Of a stretch of DNA of 64,000 nucleotides, positions 18,136 to 62,576 are shown one piece after another. The stretch is taken from NCBI GenBank assembly GCA_947629015.1, contig CANRCB010000006.1, positions 24,347 through 88,346 of the forward strand, written 5' to 3'. Position 1 is the first letter of the stretch. Each line of letters opens with the position of its first letter. This DNA comes from an uncultured Gemmiger sp. (lineage in GTDB: Bacteria; Bacillota; Clostridia; Oscillospirales; Ruminococcaceae). Made by a program: the position numbers and the translations under genes. The notes under the pieces are model-generated. The model was given only the letters and a program-made list of their open reading frames with translations. It made no database searches and was not told the DNA's origin.

Positions 18136-18452
18136 AGCGCCCCGCCGGACAAAGTCCGGCGGGGCGCTCAGTGTGTCAAAAAAGTCAACTGCGATCCCAA
18201 GGCAAACTGTAGGGGGCGGCGATCTCCGCGCCAAGAGCCGCCCTTCGGGCGCTTGGCTCCGGTGCGAAGCCCGGAGCTTGCGCTCCGAAACGCCTCGCTG
18301 CGGCTCGGCGTCCCCGACGCCCCGTGAACGTTGCAACGGCGGAAAGTTTACGGGACGTCCGGAGGCCGTCCCCTACAAGCATTCCAAAAAGCATTTGGTG
18401 CTCTTTTTTCGACAGTCTCAGCGCCCCGCCGGACAAAGTCCGGCGGGGCGCT
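18136..18452. repeat. MITE-like intergenic repeat flanked by identical 33-nt palindromes (18136-18168 and 18420-18452)
   Basis: Both flanks read agcgccccgccggac-aaa-gtccggcggggcgct; the 251-nt insert has similar ends (cagtgtgtcaaaaaag / rc gagactgtcgaaaaaag). Confidence 0.7.
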
Positions 18453-18491
18453 CGCTATATGTGTTATGCAAATGGCGCGCGGGCGGGCCGT

Positions 18492-25090: not shown

Positions 25091-25099
25091 CTGCAAAAC

Positions 25100-25290
25100 A
25101 AAAGAGGGGTTCGGCTTTGCTGGCTGCGCCAGTCCGCCTGCACCCCTCTCTTGGACACACCCCGTCGCAAAAAATACCGTGCGCATGCCTTTCAGGCGAC
25201 TTGCACGGTATTTTTTGCTCTAGAGGTATCGGCCTCGTCGGTTCATGCCCGCCGAGGCCGATAGATTTAAAAGCATACTTTTTGGCTGTC
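25100..25290 (-). repeat. Dispersed three-hairpin intergenic element, copy A
   Basis: HP3 25100-25152, HP2 25167-25218, HP1 25228-25262; reverse complement matches copies B and C. Confidence 0.85.
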
Positions 25291-40297: not shown

Positions 40298-40418
40298 GGG
40301 TCCCTCTCCTCTCGAAAACGGCTTACACACAGTAGCATACCTGTTTTGCGGCAAAAAAACAAGGGCGCGCTGTAAAAATGCAGCGGCCCTTGGGGGGTGC
40401 GCGGCGCGGGGCGGGGCG

Positions 40419-40535
40419 TTACGCCGCCGCAAGCTCCCGCCAGGCCTCGGCCAGGGTATCGGCCGAGAACAAAAACTCCCCGTTTTCGGCGTACACTTCC
40501 ACATGGCCGCCCACGTACCGGATGCTCTCTTTCAT
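40419..40535 (-). CDS. Putative 38-aa small protein
   Basis: Read directly: MKESIRYVGGHVEVYAENGEFLFSADTLAEAWRELAAA*; absent from the ORF track (below length cutoff). Confidence 0.5.
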   Translation of the reverse strand: MKESIRYVGGHVEVYAENGEFLFSADTLAEAWRELAAA

Positions 40536-50715: not shown

Positions 50716-50760
50716 TGCCGGATATTTTGCCAAAAGCCGGGGCGCATGGTGCGCACCGGC

Positions 50761-50971
50761 AAAGAGGCATTTAAAATCCATCGCCCTCGGCGGACATGCG
50801 CCGACGAGGGCGATACCGCTAGAGCAAAAAATACCGTTCGAGTCGCCTTTAAGGCATGAGAACGGTATTTTTTGCGACGGGGTATGTCCAAGAGAGGGGT
50901 GCAGGCGGACTGGCGCAGCCAGCTAAGCCGAACCCCTCTCTTGCAGCGTGTCGCGGCACGCGACACGCTGA
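50761..50971 (+). repeat. Dispersed three-hairpin intergenic element, copy B
   Basis: HP1 50780-50814, HP2 50824-50875, HP3 50890-50942, fourth GC hairpin 50944-50970. Confidence 0.88.
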
Positions 50972-51018
50972 ACCGGGGCGCATGGATGCGCCCCGGCTGC
51001 TTTTTTAGCGCACGGGCC

Positions 51019-52524: not shown

Positions 52525-52822
52525 AGCTTTCTCCCCTCTTTTGAACGTTTTGCTGTATGCTTATTCCGCCCCGCAAAGAAAAATGCGAGGGGGCAGGGCC
52601 GCCCGCACACCGCGGCCATGCGCCCCTCACACCATTGTGAGCCTTGCGGAGAAGTTGTCTTTATTTTATACGTCAGGGCGGCAATGTCAAGGGTTTTTGG
52701 TAAAGTTTGTTGGCGCTGCATAGACGTTTGTGTGTACGCGGAAAACATTTTGGTTGTTTTGCCGCTTTAAGCCATTAAAGCGGCACGCGCCCAAAAACGC
52801 CCGCCCCGGCCGGGGCGGGCGT

Positions 52823-53048
52823 GAGAGACTGCCGAAAAAGATATCTTCTAAATCTATCGCCCTCGGCTGACATGCGCAGACGAGGGCGATACCTCTAGAG
52901 CAAAAAATACCGTGCAAGTCGCCTGAAAGGCATGCGCACGGTATTTTTTGCGACGGGGTGTGTCCAAGAGAGGGGTGCAGGCGGACTGGCGCAGCCAGCT
53001 AAGCCGAACCCCTCTTTTGCAGCGTGTCGCGGCACGCGACACGCTGAA
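52823..53048 (+). repeat. Dispersed three-hairpin intergenic element, copy C
   Basis: Same hairpin order as copy B; between identical 28-nt repeats at 52795-52822 and 53047-53074. Confidence 0.88.
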
Positions 53049-53097
53049 ACGCCCGCCCCGGCCGGGGCGGGCGTTGAGACAGGGCCTTTTCAGGCGT

Positions 53098-53283
53098 TTA
53101 TTGGCGGACGGTCCGGGCGGGAGCCTGCTGCTGTTTCTGCTCCAGCTCGTCCTCAAACTCTTTCTCGCGCTTGCGCTGCCGGATGATGTGGGCGACCAGC
53201 ACCACCACCAGCACGATCAGCACGATCAGCGCCAGGATATCCCACAGGCAGAAGCCCAACGTAGTGTGGAAGTACGTATGCAT
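53098..53283 (-). CDS. Small single-TM protein
   Basis: MHTYFHTTLGFCLWDILALIVLIVLVVVLVAHIIRQRKREKEFEDELEQKQQQAPARTVRQ; 19 nt downstream of a surface-protein gene on the same strand. Confidence 0.7.
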   Translation of the reverse strand: MHTYFHTTLGFCLWDILALIVLIVLVVVLVAHIIRQRKREKEFEDELEQKQQQAPARTVRQ

Positions 53284-53302
53284 CGTTACTGCCCTCCTTT
53301 AC

Positions 53303-56185
53303 TTACTGCGCCAGCTGGCTCTGCTGCTCGAACCGGCGGGCCTGGTGCTTTTTGCGGTCATGGGTGTAGTACAGGGCCACGGCCAGCGCCAGCAGCATGA
53401 CGAGCAGATGCAAAACGCAGCAGTCCTGCGTGATGCTGAGCATGGCGAGCGGGGTCTCATTTTCCTCAATGGCCGTGCCGCCCTGGCCGGCGCCGGGGCC
53501 TCCGGCCAGCGGGGTATCGTTGTCGTCGATGACCACACCGGCGTCGTCATCGGCGTCGTCGGCGTCGTCATCCGCGTCCGCGTCGGCAACACCGGCTCCG
53601 CCGGCTGCACCGGCGCCGCCAGGCACAGCCGCGGCAGGCGTCGGGGCCAGCGGGGTGGCATCATCATCAATGGTCACAGGGGCAGGGACGACCGGGGCTG
53701 TACCGCCGGGCGTGGTGCCGGGCGTAGTGCCGGGGTCGGCCGGGGTGGTGCCGCCGGGGGTCGTGCCGCCTTCGTCACCGCCGCCGGGCGTCGTGCCGCC
53801 TTCGTCACCGCCGCCGGGGGTCGTGCCGGGGTCGGCCGGGGTCGGGGTCGGTTCCGGAGACGGTTCCGGAGACGGGGTGGGGGTCGGGGTGGCTTCACCG
53901 CCGCCTTCGCCGCCGGGTGCCGGGGTCGGGGTGGCTTCACCGCCGCTTTCGCCGCCGGGCGCCGGGGTGGGGGTCGGGGTGGCTTCACCGCCGCTTTCGC
54001 CGCCGGGTGTCGGGGTGGATTCCGGAGACGGGGTCGGGGTGGGTTCCGGAGACGGGCTCGGGGTGGGTTCACCGCCGCTTTCGCCGCCGGGCGTCGGGGT
54101 GGGGGGCGGGGTGGCTTCACCGCCGCTTTCGCCGCCGGGTGTCGGGGTGGGTTCCGGAGACGGTTCCGGGGATGGTTCCGGGGACGGTTCCGGAGACGGT
54201 TCCGGCGTCTCGCACTTGACGAGAACACTCTTGTCGGAAGCGTCATATTTTGTCGTACCGTCTACCGTGTACCAGCCGCCATCAATGTAGTGCAGCGTAA
54301 AGGTAACGTTTTGCACATCCGCGGTATGCGTGCCGTATACCGCATTGTATTGGTCCAGATACTGCTTGACGGCAGTGGTGACGGTGACCGTATAGCCGGT
54401 TTCCGCGTTGCCTTGCACCTCGGAGACCGTCGCATCCCCAACGGGGTAAGTTACCTTATCATGGACGGTGTTGCAGTAGAGCGTGACGCTGAGTTTTGTT
54501 TTCAGCGCATCAAGGTCGGGCTTTTTCGGCGTTGTGTCCACGCACCTGGTCTCAATGGTAAGGGTGACTTTTGGGGAACTGCACGTAGAATCCACATACC
54601 AATTGCCGCCGCGGTAATACAGCACATGCGTCAATTTTAACGGACTTAGCGGCTCATGCAGGCCATGCGTTGTGGAAAATTCCTCGACATACGGCTGCCT
54701 TTCGATCGTCACACTGACCGTCCAGACGCCGTCGCCGGCTTCCTGGATCTCGCCGACCGTATAGGAACCTTCACGCAAAGGATAGGTTTTTTCCGTATGC
54801 TCGGCGTTTTTGTTGCACTTGACCTTAATATTGATCAAGCCGGCCAACGCATCCTGCCCCGGGACTGCCGGTTTGGCCGGCTTCCATTGGGCGGTGTAAA
54901 CGGCATCTCCGGTCACTGTCTCGGCGACCTCCGGGCTCCAACCGGCAAATTCATACCCATTGCGGGTAGGGGTACCACCTCTGAAAGCAGGCGTGGGATC
55001 GCCCTCCGCAACGGTGTCGACCTGGTCTGCAAAAACGGTCTCATCCTTGACGCCATCGGTGTAGGTAACGGTGTGCGTGTTGCCCTCTACAACAACGATG
55101 AAGGTGATCGTCCTGTCATACCAGCTGTTATCTGCACATCTATGAGTCTGCCCGCAATATGAGCAGTAACGGTTGCCACAATTGCCAAAGTATACCGACG
55201 TTTCAAATGTGAAGGTCGTTGTGCCGGGCTTAAGGCCGGTGAACCAGATGTCGATATCATACCCGTTGGCATTATAGCCACAGTCCACATTGCCCAAAAT
55301 GGAGTGATCATAGTCAGCGTAAGCGTCACCATACATATAAATGTGCGCGCTGGAGAAAACTTTGTTCCGATTATTTGGGCAATAGAAATCCAGCACCGGG
55401 GTACTGTAGTTATATGTGCCTTGCTGGCCGACTTTGATCGTGATTGTCCGGCCGGCTGCAATCGTAGCGATGCCGGATTCCGCAGCCGCAGCGGGCTCAT
55501 CGTCCTTGGCCGCCGGGCCGTTGACGATCTCGGTCTCGGGCGCCTTCTCGGGCGCGGGGGCGATCGGGGGCAGCCCCACCACTACGGGCACAGGCATACT
55601 CTGCACTTCCGTGTCCGCGGTGGGTTCGTCCCCGGCGGGGGCAGCGTCAACCGGCGTGTCCGCAGCGGGCGCATCCTCGGCGGGGGCAGCGTCAACGGGC
55701 ATGTCCGCGGCGGGTTCGTCCCCGGCGGGGGCGGCGTCAACCAGCGTGTCCGCGGCGGGCGCATCCTCGGCAGGGGCGGCGTCAACGGGCGTGTCCGCGG
55801 CGGGTTCGTCCCCGGCAGGGGCGGCGTCAACGGGCGTGTCCGCGGCGGGTTCGTCCCCGGCGGGGGCGGCGTCAACCGGCGTGTCCGCGGCGGGCGCATC
55901 CTCGGCAGGGGCAGCGTCAACGGGCGCATCCGCGGCGGCCTCAGGGGCCGGAGCGGTCATGGATGGTTCAATGACGGTGTCCTCACCGTCATTGGAAGTG
56001 GGAGCTCCCACTTCCGGCTCCACCACAGGTTCGGCAGCCTGTTGAGCGGCCTCCTCCTCGGCCTGCACGGCCACGGCAGGCGGTTCCGTTGGGCCGGCGT
56101 CATCGGCAAAGGCGGCGGTGCCAAGGTTGCTTATCACCATCGCGGTCGCCAAGATGCCGGCCCACATACGTTTGCTCAGTTTCAT
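53303..56185 (-). CDS. Large surface protein 1: signal peptide, 15-aa repeats, InlB B-repeat-like domain, Pro-rich stalk, TPLA motifs, C-terminal TM
   Basis: [58 protein letters not shown]-like block ([18 protein letters not shown]); [44 protein letters not shown] end. Confidence 0.88.
55612..55926 (-). repeat. About seven tandem 45-bp coding repeats
   Basis: Encodes VDAAPA(G/E)D(E/A)PAADTP units. Confidence 0.85.
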
Positions 56186-56385
56186 CTTGAGCCTCCTTTA
56201 TGTGTATGGGGGTAAATTGACAAAACGATCGTTTCCAAAAGTCTTGTCCCTTCAAACTATATAGACGGAGCAGCGGGCCAAAACGGCTCACGTTTTTTGT
56301 GGTTTTTGAAAATTTTTTTCGGGCGTTTGTTTCCGGCCGGGCGTGCCGGCGGCGGAGGGGCGCCTTTATGGATTCCTCCATAAAC

Positions 56386-56447
56386 AGTATACCATGCACC
56401 ATTTTTTGCACACAAGAACCGTTTGCGTCATTAAACGCAACGTTCGC
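56386..56447 (-). promoter_or_regulatory. Promoter TTGTGT-18-TATACT with upstream 9-nt direct repeats, surface protein 1
   Basis: -10 56386-56391, -35 56410-56415; accgtttgc 56418-56426 and aacgttcgc 56439-56447 (21-nt period). Confidence 0.6.
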
Positions 56448-56459
56448 GCAGAGATATGT

Positions 56460-56859
56460 GCATTTTCACCAAAAATAATGCACCCGGCGGATCGCATTTG
56501 CAGGGCGCCCCTGCGGGGGCAAGCCCCCGCCCTACAATCGGAATATACGTCCCCGGCGCCCCGTCAAAGGCATTCCGCGGTACGACGGGCCGCATGTATG
56601 CGGCCCCTACGGGATGGATGATACGTTTTCTGTATTCCCGTAGGGGGCGGCGTCCTCGACGCCCCGCAAGCGGCATCCCGCGGTACGGCCGCGCGGCGGG
56701 GGCAAGCCCCCGCCCTACAACCGGCCCATACGTCCCCGGCACCCCGTCAAAGGCATTCCGCGGTACGGCGGGCCGATTGTAATCGGCCCCTACGGAATGG
56801 ATGATACGTTTTCCGTATTCCCGTAGGGGGCGGCGTCCACTGCCTTTTTTGACACACTG
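56460..56859. repeat. Mosaic of GC-rich intergenic repeats
   Basis: Multiple copies of gtagggggcggcgtc..., gggggcaagcccccgccctacaa, cgtccccggc(g/a)ccccgtcaaaggcattccgcggtacg and (a)tggatgatacgtttt. Confidence 0.75.
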
Positions 56860-56893
56860 GCGTGCCGCCGCCCTTTACGGGGCGGCGGCACGC
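56860..56893 (-). terminator. GC hairpin downstream of surface protein 2
   Basis: gcgtgccgccgccc...gggcggcggcacgc, 14-bp stem. Confidence 0.65.
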
Positions 56894-56920
56894 TTACTGC
56901 TTATTGAGGCCGGCACGGGC

Positions 56921-59900
56921 TTACTTTGTGCCGGTGCGGCGCTGCGCAAAACGCTCGGCCTGGTGCTTTTTGCTGAGGTAGGTATAGCACAGCACGGCGG
57001 CAAGCGCCAGCAGCGGCCAGATCGGGAAGTGATGGTCACAGTCCGTTACCGGGGCCGCGGCCAGCGGGGTCTCGTCCTCCTCAATGGCGGCCGTTTCCCC
57101 GCCCTGCGCGTCGGGCGCGGCGGCGTCCTCCAGCGCGGGGCCGCCCGCCAGCGGGGTCTCGTCGTCCTCGATGGTCACGGCGTCATCCGCGGGGCCGTCC
57201 GCCAACGGCGTCTCGTCCTCGGGGATGGTCACGGCGGCGGCCGGGGCCACACGCGCGGGTGCCGCAGGCGCAGCGGGCGCAGCCGGTGCCGCCGGGGCGG
57301 CAGGCGCGGCGGGGGTGTCATCCTCCGCAGGCGCTGCGGTCGGTTCCGCAGTCGGCTCAGGTTCCACGGTCGGTTCCGGTGTGGGTTCCTCACTCGGCGC
57401 GGGCGTTGCAGTCGGTTCCGTGGTCGGCTCGGGTGCCGCGGTGGGTTCCGGCGTGGGTTCCGTGCCCGGCGCCGGCGTCGGTTCCGGCGCAGGTTCGGTG
57501 CTCGGTTCCGGTGTCGGCACCGGGACGGGCGCGTTGACGGTCAGCGCGCCGGCGGTGACGGCGACATCATAGTTGGGGTTGCCGCCAAGGGTGACGGTAT
57601 AGGCATAGGTGCCGGCCGTCTCGCCCGCTTCACGGGTGACGGTGTACGCCAGCGCATCCTCGCCCACAAGGCCCTGCACCTCGACCTGCGGCTCGGGGTC
57701 GGCCTCGCCTTCGGTCTTTTCGGCATCGAGCACGGTGAGGGTGACGGGCTTTTGGGTGACGGTCAGGGTGGCGCCTTCCACCGTGACGGTATAGTTGGGG
57801 TTCCCGCCCGGGGTGACGGTGATGGTATAGCTGCCGGCATCCTCGCCCGCATCACGCGAGAGCGTGTAGTTGAGGGTCTCGCCCTCGACAACGCCGGTAA
57901 CGTCGGCGGTAAGTTCGGGGTCGGCGTCGCCGTAGGTCTTGGTGAGGGCGTTGGCGGTGACGGTGGCCTGCGCGGGGACAACGGCCAGCACGCCGGGCAC
58001 ACGGTCCACCGTGTAGTTGTTCCCGTTTACCTCGCCCCAGTCGATATTTATCTCCTGCGGGATGTAAAACTGCGTGGCAACGTTGGTCAGTTCCGGCAGG
58101 CCGCCCACGGTGACGGCCTTTTCCGCATCAGGGCCGACCAGGCCGGTGGCCGTGGCCATACCGCTGTGCGGCTGGCCGTCATACACGGCGCGGATGTTTT
58201 GCGCCGCAACGGTCAGGATCGCTTTGGTCACGGTGAGCGTGCCGTATTCCACGGTGACGGCATAGTTGGGATCCTTGCCGCCGTTGATGGCCCAGGTAAA
58301 GACGTTTTCCGTTTCGCCGGCATCGGTCTGGCTGGCGGTCACTTCATATTCCAGCGCATCGTCGCCCACAAGCGCCTCTTTGCCGGCTTCGCCGGTATAG
58401 GTGGGCGTCACGTTTTCGGCCGTCAGCGCGGTGCCGTCGTAGACCTTCTGCGCGGTGCCGCTGGTCAGGGTGATGGGGCGCGGATAGATATAGAATTCCT
58501 CCGAGGCCTGGCAGGGCGGCAGGTTATCCGTCTCTGTCCAGCGCGCGATGACCACATAGTGCCCGGCATCCTGCGGCGGGGTTGCGTATTCTTCCACCGT
58601 GGCGGGCCCATCCTCGACCGCGGCATAGGTGAACGTCGGCTCGCCATAGGTGCTGCCGGGATCGGCCGTCAGGTACGCCTCGGCCTTGGGTGCGGCGGGC
58701 GTATCGCCATAGACCCAGCTGCCTATGCTGAGTTCGGTTGTGATATCCACCCTGGGGGGCTTGGCGATGGTCAGGCCGCCGTCCTCATCCACAACAACGG
58801 TGGGGGTATAGTTGCCCTTCTCGTTGCCGGTGACGGCAAAGGTATCTTTTGTCAGGCCCATGGGATAACTGCCTACATTGGTGCCGGAGGCGCCGCTCAC
58901 AAAATCCGCAGGCAGGGTGACGTTCAGGCCTGCCGGCCATTCCCCTACCTTTTCATACGACGCCGGGGCGGTGTGCGCTTTGCCGTCATACACCACGGTC
59001 TGCTGCGTGCCTTTAAGGTGCAGTTCCACCGGTTTGGCGGTGATGACCAATGTTGCCGTAGGATCTGTGACCGCTATGGTGACCTTTTCCTGTTTGTACC
59101 CCGGGCAGGTAACGGCAAAATTTTGCCCGTACAGGGTCACAGTATGCGTGCCCACATCCGTCCACGAGGGTATTGTGCCGGTGTACGCCAGTACAAAGCC
59201 TTCCGGCAGCGTATCCACTATTGTATACAGTTCGTCGGCCGTCAGCGTCTGCTCGGCGCCGTTGTACACCTTTTCGGTCGTTTTGCCGGAGACTTGGATG
59301 ATAAGGCTGCGGGATCGATAGTAGACTTTGACGATATTTTCTTCGCCCCTTTGCAGCGTAATGTTGTCAACAGGCTGCTGCAACTGGTAGACAATGCCGT
59401 CAAGCGTGACCGTTTCATCCGCCGTGACCGTCGTCGTTTCGCCGGGATAGCCGCTTTGGGGGGCCTCCTCCTTTTTTACACCGTCATAATAGTACTCCAC
59501 CGTGTAGGGGACTTTGCATTCGACGTCCACGGTGACCGTAGAGTTGCCGAATACGCTCCATCTGCCACTTCGCCCCCAGTTGGACGGGCTGTATTGAAGC
59601 GTGACCGTTTGGGGAGATGTGTTTTGCAGGCGATGCTCCGTGTTGACGTCGCCGTTGTATTTTTCAACAAAAGCCTGCGGGGTGATCGTCACATCAAGGA
59701 GGTATTTGTTGCCGCTATAGTAGAGTTCCCCAAGGCTGTATGCGTCTTGGATGGTCGCCAAATTATAGCTGCGGGTTTCATGCTCTCCCGCATCCTCGAT
59801 TTGTACCAAGATCCCGAGGGTATTAATATTGGGGGGAGCCGGGTTCGGGTTCGATTGCCAGCGGGCATAGAGGGTCACATCGCTGTTCTCGTCATTCAAC

Positions 59901-61357
59901 GTCAGCGAGGTAACCAGATCATCCCGGTATTGATTCCTCGACCAGCCTTTAAAAAGGAACCCGCTTTTGGTCGGTACAGGAGATCCAGGGATGGTGTATG
60001 TCTCGCTATAGCTGACCCCGTACTCTGTATATACGGTTTTACTCACATATTTCTCCGGGACAGGGCCGACGCCGCCGTTGGCATCATAGGTAACGGTAAA
60101 GGTATGCGGGGTCTTGAAATTTATTTTGATGTCGGCGTGCCACCCATACACCTTACCGTCACCGTACACATCCGACCGGCCGATGCGGCCAAACCCTTCA
60201 AAGGCATATGCCTCCGTTTCACTAAAGAGCCATGAATATTTGCTGGCAATAGCAGTCCGGACAGCCTCCTGGCCCGCTACATAATTATCACTTTCCCCTT
60301 CATATCCGCTTTTAGGCAGGGAAACCCTAATTTCCTCCAAAGGGCCAAAGAAATTTTCCGTACTATTCAGCAAACCATACGTATCTAGCAAATACTGTTT
60401 TGCTGCCGCGACATCCCCCGTCGCTTCAACATAAATCTCTACCGCCTGCTCCTCGAGGAGATCCGCGATGGGCATTACCCCGTATTCCGCGGCGGGGTCG
60501 ACGGCGACGGCATAGAAGGTGGCGCCCTCGGCCGCAAGGGCGGGGGCATCGAGGGTGCTTTGGGTCATGGCGGCGTCAAAATACCAGCCGCCCAGCTCCA
60601 GTTCCTCGGGGAAGTCGGCAAAATCGGCCTTGGCGGGCATGGCGAGCTCGGCGCCGGCCGGCGCGGTGCGCTCCAGCGTCCAGCCGGGCTGTTCCTGCGC
60701 GCCTTCCGGCGGCGCCACCACAAAGCGCACCGTCACCTCGGGGGCCGGGGTCTCCTCGGGGGCCGGGGTCGCCTCGGGGGCGGGGGTCGCCTCGGGGGCG
60801 GGGGTTTCTTCCGGCGCGGGGGTGCTCTCCGGGGCAGGCGTTTCCGCCGGGGCGGGGGTCGTCTCGGGCACCGGGGCCTCTGCCGGCACAGGGATGACCA
60901 CAGGGGCCGGGGTCACCACAGGGGCGGAAACTTTCCCTTCGTCCGGCGCGGGGGCGGCCGGGTCATCGGCGGGCGCCGGCGGCACAGGTTCCTTGATGCC
61001 GGGCTGTGCACCGGCATCAAAAGAGGGCGCGCCCTCTTGCGGGGCCGTCTCCTGCGCGGGCTCCGGCGTCGGCTCCGGTACAGGCTCGGCGGAGGGTTCC
61101 GCAGGCAGTTCCGGGGTGGGCTCCACAGCCGGCGCTGGGGTGGGTTCCGGCACGGATTCCGGCACGGGTTCGGGTGCCGGTTCGGCGGAGGGCTCCGCGG
61201 GCAGTTCCGGCGCGGGTTCCGGCGCAGGGTCGGCGGCAAGTTCCGGGGCGGGCTGCTGCGGCAGGTCCTCCCCCTCGGCGTAAGCGGTGATGTGCACCGC
61301 GCCGAGCATCATTGCCATGGCAAGGGTGCCGGCCAGAATACGTTTGGACAGTTTCAT
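56921..61357 (-). CDS. Large surface protein 2 (1478 aa): signal peptide, Pro/Glu-rich regions, InlB B-repeat-like and MBG/YDG-like domains, TPLA motifs, C-terminal TM
   Basis: MKLSKRILAGTLAMAMMLGAVHITAYAEG; VTYDANGGVGPVP...KSGFLFKGWSRN; QKVYDGTALTAENVTPTYTGEAG; IPEDETPLA, IEDDETPLA, IEEDETPLA; CYTYLSKKHQAERFAQR end. Confidence 0.9.
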   Translation of the reverse strand: MKLSKRILAGTLAMAMMLGAVHITAYAEGEDLPQQPAPELAADPAPEPAPELPAEPSAEPAPEPVPESVPEPTPAPAVEPTPELPAEPSAEPVPEPTPEPAQETAPQEGAPSFDAGAQPGIKEPVPPAPADDPAAPAPDEGKVSAPVVTPAPVVIPVPAEAPVPETTPAPAETPAPESTPAPEETPAPEATPAPEATPAPEETPAPEVTVRFVVAPPEGAQEQPGWTLERTAPAGAELAMPAKADFADFPEELELGGWYFDAAMTQSTLDAPALAAEGATFYAVAVDPAAEYGVMPIADLLEEQAVEIYVEATGDVAAAKQYLLDTYGLLNSTENFFGPLEEIRVSLPKSGYEGESDNYVAGQEAVRTAIASKYSWLFSETEAYAFEGFGRIGRSDVYGDGKVYGWHADIKINFKTPHTFTVTYDANGGVGPVPEKYVSKTVYTEYGVSYSETYTIPGSPVPTKSGFLFKGWSRNQYRDDLVTSLTLNDENSDVTLYARWQSNPNPAPPNINTLGILVQIEDAGEHETRSYNLATIQDAYSLGELYYSGNKYLLDVTITPQAFVEKYNGDVNTEHRLQNTSPQTVTLQYSPSNWGRSGRWSVFGNSTVTVDVECKVPYTVEYYYDGVKKEEAPQSGYPGETTTVTADETVTLDGIVYQLQQPVDNITLQRGEENIVKVYYRSRSLIIQVSGKTTEKVYNGAEQTLTADELYTIVDTLPEGFVLAYTGTIPSWTDVGTHTVTLYGQNFAVTCPGYKQEKVTIAVTDPTATLVITAKPVELHLKGTQQTVVYDGKAHTAPASYEKVGEWPAGLNVTLPADFVSGASGTNVGSYPMGLTKDTFAVTGNEKGNYTPTVVVDEDGGLTIAKPPRVDITTELSIGSWVYGDTPAAPKAEAYLTADPGSTYGEPTFTYAAVEDGPATVEEYATPPQDAGHYVVIARWTETDNLPPCQASEEFYIYPRPITLTSGTAQKVYDGTALTAENVTPTYTGEAGKEALVGDDALEYEVTASQTDAGETENVFTWAINGGKDPNYAVTVEYGTLTVTKAILTVAAQNIRAVYDGQPHSGMATATGLVGPDAEKAVTVGGLPELTNVATQFYIPQEINIDWGEVNGNNYTVDRVPGVLAVVPAQATVTANALTKTYGDADPELTADVTGVVEGETLNYTLSRDAGEDAGSYTITVTPGGNPNYTVTVEGATLTVTQKPVTLTVLDAEKTEGEADPEPQVEVQGLVGEDALAYTVTREAGETAGTYAYTVTLGGNPNYDVAVTAGALTVNAPVPVPTPEPSTEPAPEPTPAPGTEPTPEPTAAPEPTTEPTATPAPSEEPTPEPTVEPEPTAEPTAAPAEDDTPAAPAAPAAPAAPAAPAAPARVAPAAAVTIPEDETPLADGPADDAVTIEDDETPLAGGPALEDAAAPDAQGGETAAIEEDETPLAAAPVTDCDHHFPIWPLLALAAVLCYTYLSKKHQAERFAQRRTGTK

Positions 61358-61581
61358 GGGTGCCTCCTTTGAGGGCGGGGTGAAAACACACAGGCGCGCC
61401 GGGGCGGCGCGCCGTTCGGGATGCGGCCACAGTTTGCCCTTTTACCATATAAGATGAATCTACAGGGCAAAACGGTTCCCATCGTTTGCGGGTTTTTCAA
61501 AATTTTTCTTCCGGGCGTCTGTTTCCGGCCGGGCGGACACGCCGGCGGCGGATGGGCGCCTTTACGGATTTCTCCACAAAC

Positions 61582-61643
61582 AGTATACCATGCGCCATTT
61601 TTTGCACACAAGGGCCGTTCGCGCCCTCAAACGGGACGTTCGC
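61582..61643 (-). promoter_or_regulatory. Promoter TTGTGT-18-TATACT with upstream 9-nt direct repeats, surface protein 2
   Basis: -10 61582-61587, -35 61606-61611; gccgttcgc 61614-61622 and gacgttcgc 61635-61643 (21-nt period). Confidence 0.6.
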
Positions 61644-61669
61644 GCAAGGCTTTGTGCATTTTTGCCAAA

Positions 61670-62450
61670 TATAAGGCCCCCGCCCTGCAAACCACCCGAG
61701 AATAACATTTGCAGTAAGGTTCGGGGCGTCGAGGACGCCGCCCCCTACGGTTTGCCCGAAAACACCATCCACCCACAGCGGGGTCAAGACCCCGCCCTAC
61801 GACCGGCCTATACGTCCCCGGCACCCCGTCAAAGGCACCCCGCGTCACGGCGGGGCGAGTGATACGGTTTCCGTTTCCCGCAGGGGGCGGCGTCCCCGAC
61901 GCCCCGCAAAATCCGCGCCCTGCCCGCAGCGGCGCGCAGCGCGGCGTGAGCGTGGACGGCGCCGCAAGGTGGCGTCCGTCCGGCGGACGGGGGATGACAC
62001 CTGCCCAAGCACCCGGGCGATATCCTGCCCCGGGGGATTCCAAAAGGGGGGAATCCCCTTTGGTCGTGGGTCCGCTGCATGCGAAACCAGCGGGATCTTC
62101 TGCGCCCGCAGGCGCGTCTCGGAGCGCAAGCTCCGGGCTTCGCACGGAGCCAAGCGCCCGAAGGGCGGCTCTTAGCGCGGAGAGGCGGTTCCTTTTCGGT
62201 CACGAAAAGGAACGGTAAAAAGCCAAATCCCGGCAGAACGCGGCAGCCAACAAACCCCGCGAACGGCATCCTGTCCCCCTCATCAGTCGCCTGCGGCGTG
62301 TAGGGCGGGGTCTTGACCCCGCCGCCCCAAAGGGGGAAGCCTTCCCAGGTGTCTCGCATTTTAAGCCTTCCCCTTCCGGGGGATCGCGCCCGCAGGCGCA
62401 TTTCGGAGCGCAACCGCCCGAAGGGCGGCTCTTGGCGCGGAGATAGGTGG
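61670..62450. repeat. Intergenic region built from several dispersed repeat families
   Basis: Contains cgtccccggcaccccgtcaaaggca, gtagggcggggtcttgaccccgccg and two copies (62100-62183, 62383-62443) of the gcgcccgcaggcgc...gggcggctctt(a/g)gcgcgga unit also at 18226-18300. Confidence 0.75.
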
Positions 62451-62576
62451 CCGCACAGCGGCCGGATGAGGGACCAAGGCGAGAAGTACCCCGTCAAAGG
62501 CACCCCGCGCCACAGGGCCATGGCACGCAAAAACGCGCGGCGCCAAGGCGCCGCGCGCGGGAAAAAGAGCGATTGC

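Follow-up and report, generated by a model that had tools for sequence, protein, structure and literature searches.

Whole-hairpin duplication around a non-autonomous element in a Gemmiger genome points to shape-guided insertion by an IS1182-family transposase

What places a short element without genes between two identical palindromes? The question arises at one locus (locus C) of a 64,000-nucleotide stretch of DNA from an uncultured Gemmiger species, analysed here over its full length and called the window. An initial annotation had offered two readings: an insertion that targets a terminator and leaves a long target duplication, or an element that copies the terminator of its neighbour. It had also described the two palindromes as identical and as peculiar to this locus, and both points were borne out. 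The 28-nt sequences (Table 1) are exact copies lying precisely where it had placed them, with a chance expectation of 0 in 100 dinucleotide shuffles, and their core occurs at these two places only, two mismatches being allowed, in the draft genome to which the window belongs (G000; 2.2 Mb, 75 contigs, 87% complete). That both palindromes immediately abut the element was accurate for the right copy, which touches the element's last base (CTG, 53044-53046), but not for the left, where two bases (GA) stand between the palindrome and the left end of the element, which has decayed to GAGACTGCCGA from the consensus CAGACTGTCGA.

On the minus strand, TTTTT follows the left palindrome and TTTCAG the right one; the hairpin copy on the side of the gene at 53098 thus has a shortened U-tract, while the far copy has a full one. 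A sensible reading is that the hairpin is a putative terminator of this gene, with which the position of the minus-strand stop codon agrees. Given a shortened U-tract next to the gene and an intact one beyond the element, the latter probably sits within the 3' part of the gene's transcript.

Table 1. Positions of the elements, hairpins and gene discussed, in window coordinates.
Feature	Position	Strand	Sequence or remark	Basis
Left target-hairpin copy, locus C	52795..52822	.	AAACGCCCGCCCCGGCCGGGGCGGGCGT	Sequence reading, shuffle test, genome search
Right target-hairpin copy, locus C	53047..53074	.	Adjoins the 53098 gene; T-tract TTTCAG on minus strand	
Small gene	53098..53284	-	Stop codon 53098-53100; transcript probably ended by the hairpin	
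MITE copy C	52825..53046	+	No gene; 23-copy consensus CAGACTGTCGAAAAAG...CAGCGTGTCGAGTTTCTCGACACGCTG	
Copy C, left terminal inverted repeat	52825..52840	+	Slightly decayed: GAGACTGCCGAAAAAG; consensus CAGACTGTCGAAAAAG	
Copy C, right terminal inverted repeat	53020..53046	.	CAGCGTGTCGCGGCACGCGACACGCTG, within terminal hairpin	
MITE copy A	25099..25283	-	Right end lost; beside single hairpin	
MITE copy B	50761..50970 (repeat match 50756-50975)	+	Left end lost	
Left hairpin copy, locus B	50736..50760	.	Partly decayed: GCCGGGGCGCATGGTGCGCACCGGC	
Right hairpin copy and T-tract, locus B	50973..50996	+	CCGGGGCGCATGGATGCGCCCCGG CTGCTTTTTT	
Second MITE type	18170..18419	-	Same kind of ends (CAGTGTGTCAAAAAAG / CTTTTTTCGACAGTCT), different interior	
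Left hairpin copy, second MITE type	18136..18169	.		
Right hairpin copy, second MITE type	18420..18453	.	Identical to 18136-18169 (34 nt)	

Alignment of 23 near-complete copies from three genomes yielded a consensus of 221 nt, beginning with CAGACTGTCGAAAAAG and ending with CAGCGTGTCGAGTTTCTCGACACGCTG; copy C measures 222 bp. Inverted repeats (CAGACTGTCGA / CAGCGTGTCGA, the right terminus reading CGACACGCTG) form the element's ends and enclose no gene, which identifies the element as a MITE: it is short and non-coding, has terminal inverted repeats, is present in multiple copies and is accompanied by a target duplication. A genome search returned 57 matches in G000, about 30 of them substantial, and the genomes of two sister species, G018 and G011, hold about 20 copies each, so that tens of copies are spread across this Gemmiger-clade genome and its two relatives. 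No match was found in phage and plasmid collections, nor any Rfam family match within the window. In the 23-copy alignment, 97.7% of cells in the interior are paired and 17 pairs have changes in both partners, where shuffles average 7.0, and no shuffle attained the covariation score; related copies can inflate such counts. These figures support an interior that keeps several conserved hairpins with compensatory changes, which does not in itself prove an RNA function. Five copies (L007, L008, L017, L018 and L019) hold extra inserted palindromic modules, suggesting that the interior is modular.

The flanks of other copies bear directly on the two readings. For 63 MITE copies from G000, G018 and G011, we aligned each left flank with the right flank of the same copy and with those of all other copies, the 3906 mismatched pairs serving as the null and their 99th percentile as the threshold. 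Own flanks exceeded this threshold in 28 of the 63 copies; where both ends were recognised, they did so in 22 of 32 copies, as against 1% of mismatched pairs; a score of 30 was reached by 25 of 63 own pairs and by 0.28% of mismatched ones. The duplicated stretches mostly begin within a few bases of the MITE ends, often at 0 bases. The paired-hairpin pattern of locus C is therefore found at other copies too, while the hairpin itself differs from locus to locus; this is the outcome of the survey of flanks which the initial annotation had proposed. A scan of the retrieved G000 loci for palindromic direct repeats found 17 pairs, 11 of which our script marked as carrying a recognised element end, a further one (L016) having been overlooked by its end pattern. 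Within the window, long hairpin pairs occur only around elements or inside another repeat. Since a clear duplication is lacking in ten of the 32 complete copies, there must also be decay or some second mode, for instance loss of the hairpin.

Relatives without the element offer a second line of evidence. An empty site, it had been proposed, should carry one palindrome rather than two, and this is what three other loci display. Locus B (50756), with its two related hairpin copies in the window, is element-free in sister genome G011, which shows a single hairpin there (CCGGGGCGCATACCGCGCCCCGG). At C3:37114, a MITE in G000 stands between two identical hairpin copies, and in eleven element-free relatives the same genes enclose a single hairpin; the relatives' hairpins differ in sequence from that of G000, and the comparison therefore speaks to number and position rather than identity. 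The element is present at this locus in G018, with a single full hairpin plus a remnant. The third locus, C7:56788, has a single hairpin in G011 as against two in G000. Two further comparisons were less informative: synteny breaks in both G011 and G018 at the second MITE locus (18136), and a G011 copy (L062) and its element-free counterpart (window 40314-40423) have one hairpin each, with no clear sign of duplication.

For locus C itself, no empty site was found in G018, in G011 or among 35 genomes of the genus. Both sister genomes follow the window up to about 52762-52839 and then pass directly to the rplL region (window 62573); since the block on the 53098 side is missing from them, they can hold no exact empty site, and the block with the 53098 gene had no close counterpart in the 35 genomes. 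As an observation in its own right, window 53075-62570 (about 9.5 kb) is a block whose long minus-strand ORFs are rich in repeats; it is absent from G018 and G011, where its flanks are joined. Pieces related to it occur elsewhere in G000.

The MITE has no gene of its own, and its mobiliser is likely to be an IS1182-family insertion sequence acting in trans. The IS1182 transposase domains PF13751 and PF05598 were not found in the 75 contigs of G000, an 87% complete draft, and PF13751 was not found in G018, despite its roughly 20 MITE copies. G011 holds both the MITE and transposase genes, and there the IS element ends, CAGACTGTCGAGAAACTGG and CAGTTTGTCAAAAAAGAGG, lie directly beside locus-specific hairpins. 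The IS right end (CAGACTGTCGAGAAACTGG) is close to that of the MITE (CAGCGTGTCGAGAAACTCG); the sequence common to MITE and IS is confined to about 16 bp at the ends. The G011 transposase has at least 577 relatives, mostly from Clostridia among the matches listed. At 28 of the scanned loci, in named genomes, complete ISs lie between perfect hairpin-forming direct repeats of 17-39 nt, in line with the palindrome targeting reported for some IS1182 members; these sites were ascertained through palindromic repeats, and the counts represent no rate among all IS insertions. The ISs have ends reading CAG(A/C/T)CTGTC(G/A)AAAAAG or close to it (CAG..TGTC(G/A)AAAAAG), measure about 1.5-1.6 kb, and carry terminal inverted repeats and a single ORF of about 480-500 aa, as expected of single-ORF IS1182 elements. 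Two complete transposases, from L112 (389 bits) and L103 (397 bits), exceed the NF033551 cut-off of 270, which places them in the IS1182 family, and also match PF13751, PF05598 and PF01609; the truncated G011 copy L096, at 227 bits, falls under the cut-off. At 24 clean IS sites, with duplications of 21-39 nt, the hairpin axis and the centre of the duplicated stretch coincide exactly in 19 cases and differ by no more than 1 bp in 23; the remaining hairpin, which has a 2-nt loop and was missed by the script, is 0.5 bp off centre when judged by eye.

Taken together, these observations make it very probable that copy C is a non-autonomous MITE inserted into a hairpin by an IS1182-family DDE transposase, the whole hairpin having been duplicated. 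The transposase would recognise a hairpin, typically a terminator, as a cruciform or extruded stem-loop, by shape and not by sequence. The element ends would then be joined to the target, one on each strand, where the hairpin has its 5' foot. Hairpin length (about 20-40 nt) would thereby fix the distance between the joining sites, and the repair of the gaps would leave a full copy of the hairpin on either side of the element. One copy would keep the U-tract and could still end the transcript, so that the element would come to lie in a transcribed region, with a weakened terminator copy on one side and an intact one on the other. Since transposase-bearing relatives across Clostridia likewise duplicate hairpins, the shape of the target DNA is suggested to set the position of the cuts. 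The first of the two initial readings, a terminator-targeting insertion with a long target duplication, is thus upheld by locus-specific duplications far above the mismatched-flank controls, by one-hairpin empty sites at three other loci and by duplication around complete ISs with matching ends.

A precedent exists in IS1272, an IS1182-family element of Staphylococcus which targets hairpins, often terminators, without primary-sequence specificity (PMC5678879, PMC4923244). For this element, Wan and co-workers described hairpin replacement as the outcome, drawing whole-stem-loop duplication only as a possible pathway b in their Fig. 13 (PMC5678879), while Furi and co-workers described hairpin targeting with partial deletion (PMC4923244). 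The present elements share family and target with IS1272 but differ in outcome: IS1272 replaces or partly deletes the hairpin and makes no target duplication, whereas here the hairpin is retained and duplicated whole. The mechanism we propose is pathway b as sketched for IS1272 (PMC5678879). Other members of the family are flanked by 4-bp direct repeats (PMC3281130, PMC11578231). Among these, MITEPye1 / ISPye18 and ISPse1 of Paracoccus are comparable in belonging to one and the same IS family and in including a MITE that shares its ends with an IS1182-family IS, but they have such 4-bp repeats and no hairpin target is reported for them in PMC11578231 and PMC3281130. The IS1182 family thus has at least three outcomes, of which whole-hairpin duplication is the one documented here. 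ISs that insert in REP palindromes (PMC1525189) also have palindromic targets, but these belong to a repeated sequence family and are not known to be accompanied by locus-specific duplication of a whole hairpin.

Alternatives to two-foot strand transfer must be weighed. An element of the same family could insert into hairpins while the duplication arose later, through template switching or the repair of a nick in the hairpin. The sequence data reveal only the outcome of insertion, 10 of 32 complete copies have no duplication, and IS1272, in the same family, loses its hairpin (PMC5678879). Against such a later origin, the junctions are precise at both ends and the duplications are axis-centred in 23 of 24 IS sites, as concerted strand transfer predicts, and we consider it improbable. 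The second initial reading, in which the terminator of the neighbour is copied or captured by the element and travels with it, would account for a palindrome duplicated directly at the element's edges. It predicts, however, one palindrome at many loci, and mismatched flank pairs reach a score of 30 in just 0.28% of 3906 cases; the palindromes differ at every locus, that of locus C is unique in G000, and the hairpin is already present in empty sites. With no palindrome common to the loci, this reading is not supported and has very little probability left. Site-specific recombination, by a tyrosine recombinase or in the manner of an integron cassette, is scarcely credible: a small gene-less unit between identical hairpin-forming direct repeats might resemble one bounded by attL and attR, but a recombinase would need a common core where each site has its own sequence, and the element ends are inverted repeats held in common with IS1182-family DDE elements. 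Equally hard to credit is a local tandem duplication or replication slippage, with the element there by chance or through later recombination, since, although hairpins promote slippage and some copies (L006, L242) have partial duplications, many unrelated loci, as well as transposase-bearing ISs, have duplications that touch the element ends, no hairpin is duplicated in element-free relatives, and long hairpin pairs in the window keep to elements or another repeat.

Hairpin-directed insertion by an IS1182-family transposase is, in its target preference, already known for the family; what is new, and in our judgement well supported, is the duplication of the whole hairpin as a signature of insertion. 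The usual footprint of a DDE transposon is a short target duplication whose length does not vary. In the present elements the duplication follows the target hairpin in length and has its centre on the hairpin axis, so that a model of structure-guided insertion becomes directly testable, a model previously sketched but not documented for the hairpin-replacing IS1272. IS200/IS605 elements also use palindromic targets, but through single-strand HUH chemistry and with no known locus-specific duplication of a whole hairpin. Group IIC introns resemble the present elements in inserting beside terminator hairpins; they differ in being RNA-based and are known to have neither target duplication nor inverted repeats of the DDE type. 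ISfinder reportedly gives direct repeats of 0-60 bp for IS1182, and should this range rest on hairpin duplications of the kind described here, the signature would be less new.

The survival of one U-tract-bearing terminator copy at each insertion suggests how dense terminator-targeting elements are tolerated. We lean slightly towards a broader view, in which a clade of DDE transposases has no fixed ruler, the spacing of strand transfer being set by the target hairpin and the duplication of 21-39 nt being that hairpin, and in which the conserved, structured interior of the MITEs may function at the RNA level within 3' untranslated regions of host genes.

Several neighbouring repeats were observed in passing. 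The second MITE type of the window has several more copies elsewhere in G000. In G018, duplicated hairpins enclose a further MITE, of different interior, at a putative terminator beside rplL (L191, on C37); beside rplL, G011 has a single hairpin, different from that in G018. A repeat family of another kind (GCGGGGGCAAGCCCCCGCCCTACAA...), which lacks the MITE ends, has copies, direct as well as inverted, at window 56497-56838 and 61722-61861, and seven overlapping copies with 45-nt spacing lie at 55565-55969 within a long minus-strand ORF. In another Clostridia genome (L158, 1510-1870), one hairpin is present in three copies, the first and second enclosing a MITE of the same hairpin-ended architecture and the second and third an IS1182-family IS.
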